Shown piece by piece: positions 38,883 to 61,616 of a DNA stretch of 64,000 nt. The translations under genes were made by a program, and so were the position numbers. The notes under the pieces are model-generated. The model did no database searches. It had not been told where the DNA came from and saw only the letters and a list, made by a program, of their open reading frames with translations. Source of the DNA: an uncultured Olsenella sp. Its GTDB lineage: Bacteria > Actinomycetota > Coriobacteriia > Coriobacteriales > Atopobiaceae. How positions within the stretch are numbered: position 1 is the stretch's first letter; the number at the start of each line of letters is the position of its first letter. The stretch covers positions 1-64,000 of the forward strand of contig ONBR01000013.1 of the NCBI GenBank assembly GCA_900316105.1, given 5' to 3'.

Positions 38883-39575
38883 CTACTTCTGGTAGCGGGC
38901 CTGGCTGCTGTAGCGGGGCTCGCAGCAGACGTTGATGCCCAGGGACTTGTAAAGCTGCTCGTCGTCGGACGTGATGATGGCCGAGAAGTAGGTATCGCAG
39001 TTGTTGAGCTCGCGCAGGTGCTCCAGGGCGCGACCGGCCATGGGATTGGTGAGCGACGATGTGGACAGGGCAATCAACATCTCGCCGGGGTGAAGCTGGG
39101 GACTCACGTGGCCCAGAAGGTCCGTGCGCAGGCGGCAGATGGGAGCCATAGCCTCGTCCGAGATGATGTACATGTCGTCAGGGATGTCGGCCTGGGCCTT
39201 CATGGCATTGAGCAGGACCGACGCGGATGCGCTCAGGAGCTTGGAGGTACGGCCCGTGATCACGCGGCCGTCGGGCAGCTCCAGAGCGCCAGACAGGTCG
39301 CCAGACTCCTCGGCCTTGTCCAAGGCTGCCTGGCGGGCAGGGCTCAGGTCAACGTCCACGTCGGCCTTGCGCATCAGGACCATGAGCTTCTTTACCTGGT
39401 CCTCGCCCGCACCCGTGCGGGTAACTTCCTCGGCGTTCTTGAAGTAGCGACGAACGATTTCATTGCGAGCGGCATCGCTCACGGCGTCGTCGTCAAAGAT
39501 TGCGAAGCCGGCCATGTTGACGCCCATATCAGTCGGGCTCTGGTAGGGACTTTCTCCCAGGATGTGCTCCAGCAT
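38883..39575 (-). pseudogene. DUF1846 family protein, 5'-truncated
   Basis: A 230-residue frame that matches only the C-terminal half of DUF1846 proteins, normally about 500 residues. It begins at the conserved internal segment ESPYQSPTDMGVNMAG and continues through SDAARNEIVRRYF, LPDGRVITGRTSKLL, ALSTSSLTNPMAGRALEHL and the expected C-terminus. The N-terminal half, with the nucleotide-binding-like region, is absent. Upstream of the first ATG lies a family A palindrome (39587-39610) instead of coding sequence, and no in-frame extension exists. The GGAG just before the start means the fragment might still be translated. The break at a palindrome suggests deletion or rearrangement there. Confidence 0.8.
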
Positions 39576-39610: not shown

Positions 39611-39703
39611 CCGCCCCTTTTGGACCGCCAGTATCACCGCCTGTCTTGAACTGCTATCATTTTGTACAGACTATTTGCAGGATGACTAGGGGGAGCGGGA
39701 AAC

Positions 39704-40954
39704 TTGGCAGACATCGCCAAGGAGGGGCAGATAGAGGTTCCCTGGCGGGGTTGGGTCCCCGTACGTAGGCTGGGTCGGGGCGGTTTTGGCAGTGTGTGGG
39801 AGATCTCTCGCGCCATTGCCGGCTATACCGAGCGCGCCGCCATGAAAATCGTGCCGGTGCCCGCCGACGACTCCGTGATAGAAAGCCTCCTAGACTCGGG
39901 CTACGACGAGGCCCAGGCTCGTGCGGTCGTCGAGGACTACCGCGACTCCGTCCTTTCCGAGTACAACTTCATGCGTTCCGTGAGCGGACACGCCAATGTA
40001 GTGGAATGCCACGACGTTGCCTGGATGCCCGCGGCCGACGGTCTGAGCGGCCGCGTCTACATCCGCATGGAGCTCCTGACCTCCCTGCGAGACAAGATTC
40101 GCAAGAAGGGCGACCTCTCCGAGGCCGAGGTCCTCAAGGTGGGCGAGGACGTCTGTCGGGCTTTGGAGCTCTGCGAGAGGCGAGGCATCGTCCATCGCGA
40201 CGTAAAGCCCGACAACGTGATGGTCTCGGATGACGGCGTGTACAAGCTGGGCGACTTTGGCATCGCCCGCACCATGGAGCACGCCACCCACGCCACCCGC
40301 GTGGGTACGGCGAGCTTCGTCGCCCCAGAGGTCATCTACGGGAGCCAGTACGATCACACCGTAGACATCTACTCTTTGGGCCTGGTCCTCCACTGGCTCC
40401 TTAACGGCAGAAGGATTCCCTTCATGCCCGCGGGGCAGCCCCCGACCAGAAAGGCCCTGGAGAGGGCGTCGGCCAGGAGGCTCACGGGTGAGCTCCTGCC
40501 TCCCCCGGAGCGTGGCAGCGAGGCTGTCCACGCCGTGATAGCACGTGCCTGTGCATACAAGCCCCAAGACCGCTACCAGCACGCAAGTCAGATGCGCGCG
40601 GCGCTCAAGGCAGCCGAGGAAAACGGAACGGGAACCACCGCGCGAGGGGTTTCCTCTACGACAACCACAACCACTCCCTCACCCTCCAGGCCTGGCCCCC
40701 AGGTAAGGAAGGTCGTTCCCGCTTCAGCCGAGAGTCATGCGCAGAAGCGTCTCGCGGCCAATCAGCTCGCGGGTGAGCGGCCCAAACCCGCTTCCGCGCG
40801 TCCCATGCCGCAGCCCACCCCCAGAAAGGCCAAGCCCCAGCCAAGACAGGCCGCTCCTACGACACCGGCTCGGCCCACCGTCCGCCCGCAGCGGCCGACG
40901 CCCAGGCAGGAGCCCACGCCCAGGCAGCGAGGCGGAGGCAAGAAAAAAGGCTGA
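39704..40954 (+). CDS. Ser/Thr protein kinase domain and Pro-rich linker (N-terminal part of a probable receptor kinase)
   Basis: A Hanks-type kinase of 416 residues as read. The TTG at 39704 follows GGGAG and gives a normal domain start. Residues 24-31 are the Gly loop GRGGFGSV, Lys48 is in AAMKIV, the catalytic loop HRDVKPDN starts at 164 and DFG is at 184-186. An activation segment ending in APE (FVAPEVIYGSQYDH) follows. Residues ~310-416 are a Pro/Arg/Gln-rich linker. The frame stops at 40952-40954 right after six A (40943-40948). One frame over, the sequence continues without a start codon into Ltp repeats and a transmembrane helix. The kinase alone would be soluble and lack a sensor. 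Confidence 0.9.
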   Translation: MADIAKEGQIEVPWRGWVPVRRLGRGGFGSVWEISRAIAGYTERAAMKIVPVPADDSVIESLLDSGYDEAQARAVVEDYRDSVLSEYNFMRSVSGHANVVECHDVAWMPAADGLSGRVYIRMELLTSLRDKIRKKGDLSEAEVLKVGEDVCRALELCERRGIVHRDVKPDNVMVSDDGVYKLGDFGIARTMEHATHATRVGTASFVAPEVIYGSQYDHTVDIYSLGLVLHWLLNGRRIPFMPAGQPPTRKALERASARRLTGELLPPPERGSEAVHAVIARACAYKPQDRYQHASQMRAALKAAEENGTGTTARGVSSTTTTTTPSPSRPGPQVRKVVPASAESHAQKRLAANQLAGERPKPASARPMPQPTPRKAKPQPRQAAPTTPARPTVRPQRPTPRQEPTPRQRGGGKKKG

Positions 40955-43172
40955 GCAGGCCGCACGCGAAGCAAAAGCTCGCGAGCACGCGGAGAAGGCC
41001 GTCGGCGAAGCAAGGGACTACGTTTCCGCCGAAGGAGACTCACGCTCCCGCTCCGAGCTAGTCAAGTGGCTCCATGACCGTGGCTTCAGTTGGACCGAGG
41101 TAGCTCAAGCGGCAGCAGTCTGCGAGGCGGACTGGAATGAGCAGGCCCTGCGAAGGGCACGCATCTTGCTCACCAACGGCTACGAGTTCAGCAAGCTCAA
41201 CGGCGTCCTCAAGAACACTGGTTTCACCGAGGACCAGGTAGAATACGCCTTGGGCAAGCTGGAGGACGAGAGACAAGCCTCCGTCGCCCAGGATCAGACA
41301 AGCACAGAAAGCCAGGAAGTCCTCAGGGCGGATGGGCCAAGCGACTCCAACGATCGTACCGCGAGCATAAAGCAAGCCAGGAAGCTTCTGGGGCCAGAGG
41401 GGAATGACCTCTCCCCCAAGGAGCTTACCGAGAGACTCGTCTCCGGCGGCTACAGCTGGGGCGACTCCATCTATGCTGCCTACAACTGTGGAGCCGACTG
41501 GGATGCACAGGCTGGACGCAGGGCAAGCAGACTTCTGGACGAAGGCAAGGGGATATCGCGACTGCCCGAGCTCCTCATGGCCGCAGGCTTTACGGAAGCC
41601 CAGGCCACGAAGGCATCGGAGCAGGCAAAGAAGGACCTGGAGGAAGCAAAGCGTACCCGCGAGGAGCTGATACGCAAGGCGTCGCGTGAGCTTAGGGAGC
41701 TTCTTGCGGGAAGCGGCGACATCCTCTCATCCAGCGAGCTGATTGACTGGCTTGTCAATAAGGGCGACCTTACGCGAGACGAGGCTTCTGAGCTTGTCTA
41801 CGACTGCGAGGTCGACTGGAAGGAGCAGGCATCCAGAAGGGCAAGGATCCTCCTGAAGCGCGGCACCAACGTAGACGCCCTCCCAGACAGGCTCAGAGAG
41901 ATTGGATTCAGTTCCAACGAAGCCCACTATGCATGGGTCAAAGTCAATCAGGAACGCCAGGCATCTGGCGGCAGGTCTAAGGACCAGCAGCCCACGCCAA
42001 AGGAGACCCCACGACCAAAGCGTGAATCGGCCACCCCCCAGCAAAAGCCCGCCCGCACCGCAGCCAACGCGAGTTCGAGCACACCGACCAAGCATAGCCA
42101 CAAGTGGGCAATCGGCCTTGGCATCGCGGCGATGGTGCTTGTGGACATCATGGCAACGCCGCAGGTTCAGTCCCACTTAACGAGCATACCCACGACTCCA
42201 AGCCAGAGCGAGGCGCTTTCGAAGGCGCACGAGCTCCTGAACGCGTACCCATACTCCCGCAGCAGCCTGGTAGACAAGCTCGAGGAGACCTACGGCTCGG
42301 GCATCGCCGAGTGGGCAGCAGACAACTGCGAGGCAGACTGGAGCACAGAGGCCGCAGAAAACGCACATGCAAAGATTAATTCGGGCACATATTCCCCTAC
42401 CAACCTAAAGGCGACCCTCATCTCCGAGGGCTTCACCGACGAAGAGGCAGGCAGTGCGGTCTCGCACTATAGCGATCTTTTTGACAGCGAGGCCGCTGAG
42501 TATGCAGAAAGCCTCATTGGAAACGACCCATTCACCAAGGACGCAATGAAGGACGCCCTGACCTCAGCGGGATTCAATGATAGCCAGACGGATTACGCGC
42601 TCGACGGTTGCGACTTCAATGAAGAGGCCGTCAAATATGCCAACGCTCATCCGGGGGACGACTCCACCTCGCCGTCAGACCTTAGCAGCCAGCTACAAAA
42701 CGCTGGATTTAGCTCTGACGAAGCCGACTATGGGGTAAGCCACAGCGGCATAGCCTGGAACGACCGGGCCGCGGCATACGCAAAGGCCTGCGTGAGCAAC
42801 GGCACCGCAAAGTACACGGACCTGGTCACCCAGCTGCGCAACAAGGGATACGACAGTACCCAGGCCACGGCCGGTACCGACAACTGCGGGGTTGACTGGA
42901 ACGCAAATGCCCTGGCGGCCGCAAAGGAAAGGCTGAAGGGCTACTCCTACTCCCGCAGCAACCTCATCAGCTGGCTGAGGCACGAGGGATACTCGAAGGA
43001 CCAGGCCACCTATGGAGATGACTCGACTGGTACCGATTGGAACAACGAGGCCGTGAAGTGCGCAACGAGCCTCAAACAAGACGGCAAGTCCTCTGACGAC
43101 ATAAAGACCGAGCTCAAGAACACCTATGGCTACACTGATGATCAGATAAGCTACGCCATGTCAAAGATATAG
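40950..43172 (+). CDS. Ltp-repeat transmembrane sensor, probably the C-terminal part of the upstream kinase
   Basis: About 740 residues read in the frame one base ahead of the kinase. No ATG occurs in this frame for about 600 bases, so an independent start is unlikely; removing one A from the A6 tract fuses it to the kinase (GGGKK then AEQAAREAK). It begins with a charged coiled coil. Three double units of the Ltp/host-cell-surface-lipoprotein repeat (PF07553 type) follow, with hallmarks such as ELVKWL, GF-T-QAxYA and CxADWxEQA. A single membrane helix (WAIGLGIAAMVLVDIMA, about 42100-42160) comes next, and then about seven more repeats to the end. Inside-membrane-outside order mirrors PknB, with Ltp repeats replacing PASTA domains. 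Confidence 0.8.
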   Translation, partial: AEQAAREAKAREHAEKAVGEARDYVSAEGDSRSRSELVKWLHDRGFSWTEVAQAAAVCEADWNEQALRRARILLTNGYEFSKLNGVLKNTGFTEDQVEYALGKLEDERQASVAQDQTSTESQEVLRADGPSDSNDRTASIKQARKLLGPEGNDLSPKELTERLVSGGYSWGDSIYAAYNCGADWDAQAGRRASRLLDEGKGISRLPELLMAAGFTEAQATKASEQAKKDLEEAKRTREELIRKASRELRELLAGSGDILSSSELIDWLVNKGDLTRDEASELVYDCEVDWKEQASRRARILLKRGTNVDALPDRLREIGFSSNEAHYAWVKVNQERQASGGRSKDQQPTPKETPRPKRESATPQQKPARTAANASSSTPTKHSHKWAIGLGIAAMVLVDIMATPQVQSHLTSIPTTPSQSEALSKAHELLNAYPYSRSSLVDKLEETYGSGIAEWAADNCEADWSTEAAENAHAKINSGTYSPTNLKATLISEGFTDEEAGSAVSHYSDLFDSEAAEYAESLIGNDPFTKDAMKDALTSAGFNDSQTDYALDGCDFNEEAVKYANAHPGDDSTSPSDLSSQLQNAGFSSDEADYGVSHSGIAWNDRAAAYAKACVSNGTAKYTDLVTQLRNKGYDSTQATAGTDNCGVDWNANALAAAKERLKGYSYSRSNLISWLRHEGYSKDQATYGDDSTGTDWNNEAVKCATSLKQDGKSSDDIKTELKNTYGYTDDQISYAMSKI

Positions 43173-61055: not shown

Positions 61056-61616
61056 CTACTCTTTCCCGGCCAATGCGCCGGCCCATGCAAGCGCGAGAAT
61101 TCGCGCGCATTCCTGTTGGTTGTATGCCATGGCGTTGTTTGCCAAGAGGCTCGCCATGCCATGTGCCGTGATGAAGAGAAGCGAGAAGGCCTCGCGCGCC
61201 TGGGCGGGTGAGCAGCCGACCGCCTCCCCGACCATGCCGACCAGGCCGGCGTTCTCGGGGTCGCGCATAAGGTCATCGATGCCGCCGCCACCCAGCCTGC
61301 CGGTCTGGAAGAGGAAGCGGAAGAGGCTGGGCTCCTGTGCGCCAAAGCGGATGTAGTTGAGGCCCAGTTCCATCAGGGGATTTTGGGCGCTGTCATCGGA
61401 CGGCATGATAAAGCGCGTGTGAAAGTCGTCGGCCATCTGGTAGACGGCGTCACGCAGCTCCTCCACCGTCCTGAAGTTGTACATGACCGGCTGGGTAGAG
61501 CAGCCCAAGGCTTCCGCGACCGCGCGGGCACTCAGGCTCTCGACGCCCTTCTCGCGCACAAGGGCGAAGGCGGCGTCCAGGACCATCTGTCGCGTGACTC
61601 TGGGCTTTGGGGGCAT
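61056..61616 (-). CDS. TetR family transcriptional regulator
   Basis: A 186-residue regulator with its HTH in residues ~8-55 (TRQMVLDAAFALVREKGVESLSARAVAEALGCSTQPVMYNF) and a variable ligand-binding C-terminus. The ATG at 61616 follows AGGAG. It is the first gene of a two-gene operon with the hydrolase and is divergent from the methyltransferase gene. Just upstream, GTAACAACTGTTATTGTT (61645-61662) and nearby TTGTTAGTGTCACCTAAC contain inverted elements typical of TetR operators. It probably represses itself, the hydrolase and perhaps the methyltransferase. Confidence 0.88.
   Translation of the reverse strand: MPPKPRVTRQMVLDAAFALVREKGVESLSARAVAEALGCSTQPVMYNFRTVEELRDAVYQMADDFHTRFIMPSDDSAQNPLMELGLNYIRFGAQEPSLFRFLFQTGRLGGGGIDDLMRDPENAGLVGMVGEAVGCSPAQAREAFSLLFITAHGMASLLANNAMAYNQQECARILALAWAGALAGKE

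Follow-up and report, generated by a model that had tools for sequence, protein, structure and literature searches.

Two adjoining frames in an uncultured Olsenella genome probably encode one receptor Ser/Thr kinase with Ltp repeats, split by a one-base indel

The window, i.e. the whole 64,000-nucleotide stretch of an uncultured Olsenella genome that was analysed, contains two overlapping frames that meet close to a run of six adenines (Table 1). The upstream frame is complete, as stated in the initial annotation, and ends in GGC AAG AAA AAA GGC TGA, with the stop directly past the A6 run. It matches the Pkinase family of Pfam (PF00069, E-value 4.4e-42) and retains the main kinase motifs (GRGGFG, AMK, HRDVKPDN, DFG, APE and DIYSLG). 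Pkinase domain and catalytic motifs identify its product as a Hanks-type Ser/Thr kinase with predicted activity. The PADLOC matches mad6 and PD-T4-6 span the kinase domain only and provide no evidence of a defence role. Shortly before the junction, the kinase linker harbors the 12-base sequence ACGCCCAGGCAG twice, 18 bp apart (40898-40927); slippage at this pair would preserve the reading frame.

The downstream frame runs for 821 codons without a stop (40707-43172). When stretches of 2220 nt were simulated from an order-2 Markov model of the window, no open run exceeded 381 codons in 300 trials; the intact Ltp frame of ~740 codons, reported at this size by the initial annotation, far exceeds this chance expectation. 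It matches PF07553 of Pfam (2.6e-31, 107.9 bits, seven stretches), and 13 Ltp stretches are distinguished in total, six before and seven after a single membrane helix. The Ltp repeats and the helix near 42100-42160 had both been recognized at first reading; the six stretches preceding the helix had been overlooked. Owing to the basic stretch ahead of the helix, the kinase side is predicted to lie inside the cell. The predicted extracellular part is acidic (53 D/E vs 25 K/R), and known Ltp domains are likewise acidic (PMC5137146). The helix is internal and devoid of cysteine and the frame runs on from the kinase, so that a lipobox signal peptide is not found.

Table 1. Features of the kinase-Ltp locus (positions in the window)
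Feature	Position	Strand	Remark
Shine-Dalgarno-like AGGGGGAG	39688..39695	+	upstream of the kinase TTG start
Kinase frame: Hanks-type Ser/Thr kinase and Pro/Lys/Arg-rich linker	39704..40954	+	TTG start, TGA stop, 416 aa
Hanks-type kinase domain	about 39761-40582	+	within the kinase frame
Ltp frame	40935..43172 (open from 40707)	+	+1 relative to the kinase frame; 745 codons counted from 40935
A6 run	40943..40948	+	most likely site of a one-base indel; inside the switch interval 40834-40952
Ltp-type repeats before the helix	41007..41933	+	predicted cytoplasmic; six stretches forming three pairs
Stretches 1-3 before the helix	41007-41144, 41181-41252, 41412-41510	+	
Stretches 4-6 before the helix	41586-41621 (weak), 41733-41828, 41892-41933 (weak)	+	
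Single transmembrane helix WAIGLGIAAMVLVDIMATP	42105..42161	+	basic linker before it; one strong hydrophobic stretch in the Ltp frame
Ltp repeats after the helix	42222..43160	+	predicted extracellular; seven stretches
Stretches 1-4 after the helix	42222-42344, 42369-42467, 42504-42617, 42669-42764	+	
Stretches 5-7 after the helix	42813-42905, 42918-43046, 43128-43160 (weak)	+	

Both arrays are recognized by a repeat profile built solely from other genomes (29 repeats), with E-values of 2.7e-18 for the part before the helix (the best among 1000 shuffles being 0.03) and 8.9e-42 for the part after it. AlphaFold2 models of both parts, computed from alignments of 22 sequences, are all helical, with pLDDT values of 89.3 (cytoplasmic) and 93.5 (extracellular). 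For both models, the top Foldseek match is the Ltp protein of phage TP-J34 (PDB ID: 4eqq; probability 1.00), with TM-scores by target of 0.71 and 0.88, respectively; the E-values are merely ~0.01 because 4eqq is a small target. The next match is RecX, also a helical repeat protein. The frame thus carries PF07553 repeats and is predicted to adopt the TP-J34 Ltp fold on either side of the membrane helix.

The frame switch was mapped using a phase-aware codon model trained on the other genes of the window. This model favours the kinase frame until about 40600 and, starting at about 40920, the Ltp frame, with a best switch point at 40922 and an interval of 40834-40952 within two log units. The signal is ambiguous across the proline- and arginine-rich linker, and codon statistics do not fix the exact base; the A6 run is compatible with the interval and is the most likely site, a site a few codons upstream also being possible. 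A frame shift at A6 would yield KKKAEQAAREAKAREHAEKA, a natural helical linker. The first ATG past the junction, at 41577, lies about 215 codons into the Ltp frame, in agreement with the early remark that its first ~200 codons have none. Inspection by eye of the candidate starts of the Ltp frame (ATG at 40737, GTG at 40773, TTG at 41166 and 41250, ATG at 41577) reveals no clear ribosome-binding site, and later candidates such as 41166 and 41577 cut into the repeats, within or after the first ones. An independent start, which the initial annotation named as evidence against its reading, has no plausible candidate in the region of the frame switch. A frame scan of the window finds no further clear split gene, a result that speaks neither for nor against an assembly error. 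No RNA family match occurs within the window. A possible second split near 61056 was discarded, as the translations, examined by eye, point to a gene for a TetR-like regulator that overlaps one for a hydrolase-like protein.

Within its taxonomic family, the kinase domain has its best matches in two tandem arrays of six kinases each, in genomes G149 and G152, with identities of 38-50% (39-43% for most of the nearest relatives). Each of these kinases is encoded in one frame (572-849 aa), and their C-terminal parts differ. The arrays (L041, G149:C9:134500-152500; L042, G152:C15:126500-146000) consist of paralogous, receptor-like Ser/Thr kinases, six in each, whose kinase domains are conserved and whose C-terminal parts differ, some being polytopic. 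Two further relatives, in G108 and G165, bear RCC1 repeats. Ser/Thr kinases with RCC1-repeat C-terminal domains lie at L043:4821-6764 and L044:5312-7630, each locus coming from a different genome of the family; the L044 kinase has an additional weak DnaJ_C match. As the nearest relatives are all one-frame proteins, a kinase and its sensor in a single polypeptide appear to be the rule in this subfamily.

The initial annotation described the Ltp repeats as standing in place of PASTA domains. Neither frame has a PASTA match in Pfam. The description is misleading in that the same genome possesses a separate PknB with PASTA domains (contig C25), to which the kinase frame is only 27% identical. Against the NCBIfam model NF033483 (PknB_PASTA_kin), the kinase frame scores 155.5 bits, under the equivalog cut-off of 450. 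Another kinase with a helix is encoded on contig C30. The presence of a PASTA PknB and the 27% identity point to an additional receptor kinase, from a subfamily with exchangeable C-termini, rather than to a PknB with swapped sensors.

We infer that positions 39704-43172 are probably one gene, encoding a single-pass receptor Ser/Thr kinase with an inner and an outer Ltp array, which a one-base indel splits. The switch in codon signal, the lack of a plausible second start and the one-frame relatives support the earlier proposal of a single sensor kinase. Against it, the fusion is seen in a single draft genome, the region is rearranged or misjoined, and the codon signal of the linker is ambiguous. 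For the indel itself, an assembly or sequencing error and a recent mutation, which the population may be able to reverse, are about equally likely.

Joining the two frames requires a +1 (or -2) shift, i.e. one base fewer, and this direction bears on whether programmed recoding, by ribosomal frameshifting or transcription slippage, could connect them. The A6G sequence is similar to slippery sequences and both products would potentially be useful. Past A6, however, the -1 frame meets a stop at 41061, so that a frameshift of the A AAA AAG type cannot produce the fusion; programmed -1 frameshifting, being in the wrong direction, was rejected, as was read-through of the TGA, since the kinase frame meets its next stop 40 codons on. 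A +1 shift would need deletions in the transcript, whereas transcription slippage in A runs chiefly adds bases, and in E. coli homopolymers seldom lose a single base (PMC5574713). Furthermore, runs prone to slippage, or selected against, are usually about nine bases long (PMC1088944). Among conserved frame transitions surveyed across prokaryotic genomes, 4010 clusters were pseudogenes vs 146 recoding clusters (PMC3711429). No kinase-Ltp orthologue sharing the transition was found in the genomes searched here. The direction of the shift, the rarity of deletions, the short run and the excess of pseudogenes together favour a plain indel, recoding is highly improbable, and the productive slippage at A6 suggested at first is not upheld.

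A phase-variable receptor, in which gain or loss of a base at A6 toggles a population between soluble kinase and full receptor, would account for both halves appearing intact and for the homopolymer inside the switch interval. Six adenines are nevertheless short for a contingency locus, and many further six-base runs in the window are free of frame breaks, which makes this explanation unlikely. More doubtful still is a pair of genes, one for a soluble kinase and the other for an Ltp membrane protein with its own start, at 40737 or 40773 within the 3' end of the kinase frame, or later at 41166 or 41577. Kinase-free Ltp proteins with one membrane helix are indeed common, and two occur in this very genome; the two-gene reading is opposed by the lack of ribosome-binding sites visible by eye and the cut repeats described above, and by the nearest kinase relatives, all of which are fused in one frame to their C-terminal part. 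There is also very little to be expected from a decaying or chimeric locus, in which unrelated pieces would have been joined by a rearrangement or misjoin into something non-functional. The adjacent DUF1846 gene (38883-39575, minus strand) is 5'-truncated, lacking model positions 1-257; its homology ends at about 39587, leaving 117 bp to the kinase start. It is complete in the congener G001, and its N-terminal half is not found elsewhere in the source genome, a draft of 42 contigs that is 91.6% complete. This neighbour places the locus at the site of either a rearrangement or a misjoin of contigs, and the kinase-Ltp gene is missing from four congeners. Both frames, however, retain coding bias and intact motifs, are free of stops, and have GC and GC3 values close to those of the other genes of the window.

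Kinase-Ltp proteins were judged from the outset to be a non-standard architecture, and wider searches agree. Of 395 genomes from the order, 68 contain PF07553; the longest Ltp frames among the matches listed (up to 612 aa), as well as all those retrieved, are surface or zinc-ribbon proteins devoid of kinase motifs. No other kinase-Ltp gene was found in the order with the cytoplasmic repeats as query, in the phylum sample, or in one scan of named genomes, which relied on one sequence and short patterns and which distant fusions could therefore escape. Phages and plasmids yield solely Ltp lipoproteins or unannotated Ltp matches, viral contigs yield no match, and no literature on kinase-Ltp proteins was found. 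With no further example in several hundred related genomes and one named collection, the parts are known and their combination is new within the searches made, as seen in a single draft genome.

Other Ltp proteins surfaced in these searches. The source genome encodes two more (L045:5893-7173 and L046:9044-10042), with a zinc-ribbon N-terminus, one helix and Ltp repeats, and no kinase. An Erysipelotrichaceae MAG carries two tandem proteins (L047:964-4252) combining a zinc ribbon and leucine-rich-like repeats with a helix and Ltp repeats. One relative may hold a further Ltp gene with a broken frame: at L067 (G148:C10:74471-75012), neighbouring Ltp repeats are encoded in different frames, one of 106 codons and the other of 260.

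In its intact form, the product of the proposed single gene would be composed of an N-terminal Hanks kinase, a proline-rich linker, six cytoplasmic Ltp repeats, the helix, and seven outer Ltp repeats. The indel, at A6 or a few codons away, would interrupt the gene in the assembly, and as assembled only a soluble kinase devoid of its sensor would be made. The acidic extracellular array may bind a protein or wall ligand, bringing kinase domains together, and the cytoplasmic array may serve as a spacer or as a docking module for partners or substrates. TP-J34 Ltp works by protein-protein contact with the phage tape measure protein (PMC3952083), which makes a protein ligand plausible; that it would be a protein of the surface or of a phage is guesswork. 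A more specific version, in which the intact form in the species is a receptor for phage or envelope stress whose outer repeats bind a phage protein, e.g., the tape measure protein, and thereby activate the kinase, is a long shot.

Should an intact copy exist, it would be a receptor kinase sensing through a repeat that phages use for superinfection exclusion, with one repeat type on both faces of the membrane. It would suggest a testable class of ligands for Ltp repeats and extend a kinase subfamily that swaps its C-terminal sensors; under the phage-receptor version, superinfection exclusion would have been converted into intracellular signalling. The locus is also a caution that frame breaks in draft genomes can conceal multi-domain receptors.

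Ltp superinfection-exclusion lipoproteins block the injection of phage DNA by binding the tape measure protein. These lipoproteins (PF07553; TP-J34 Ltp, 4eqq; PHROG 4980 and 15667, superinfection exclusion) share with the present gene the repeat, the fold and the acidic extracellular part. The Olsenella gene differs from them by the absence of a lipobox, its internal helix anchor, its kinase fusion and its 13 stretches, six of them on the cytoplasmic side. CbpL of Streptococcus pneumoniae also joins an Ltp domain to other modules and lacks a lipobox (PMC5137146); it is, however, a secreted choline-binding protein with neither kinase nor helix. The PASTA kinases PknB, StkP and PrkC resemble the predicted product in their Hanks kinase, juxtamembrane linker, single helix and repeated extracellular modules (PMC12077195), whereas here PASTA domains are absent and Ltp repeats are found outside as well as inside. 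The closest kinase domains are those of the G149 and G152 arrays and of the RCC1 kinases of G108 and G165, which share with this gene a kinase followed by an exchangeable C-terminus; each of them, in contrast, is one intact frame, and none carries Ltp repeats.
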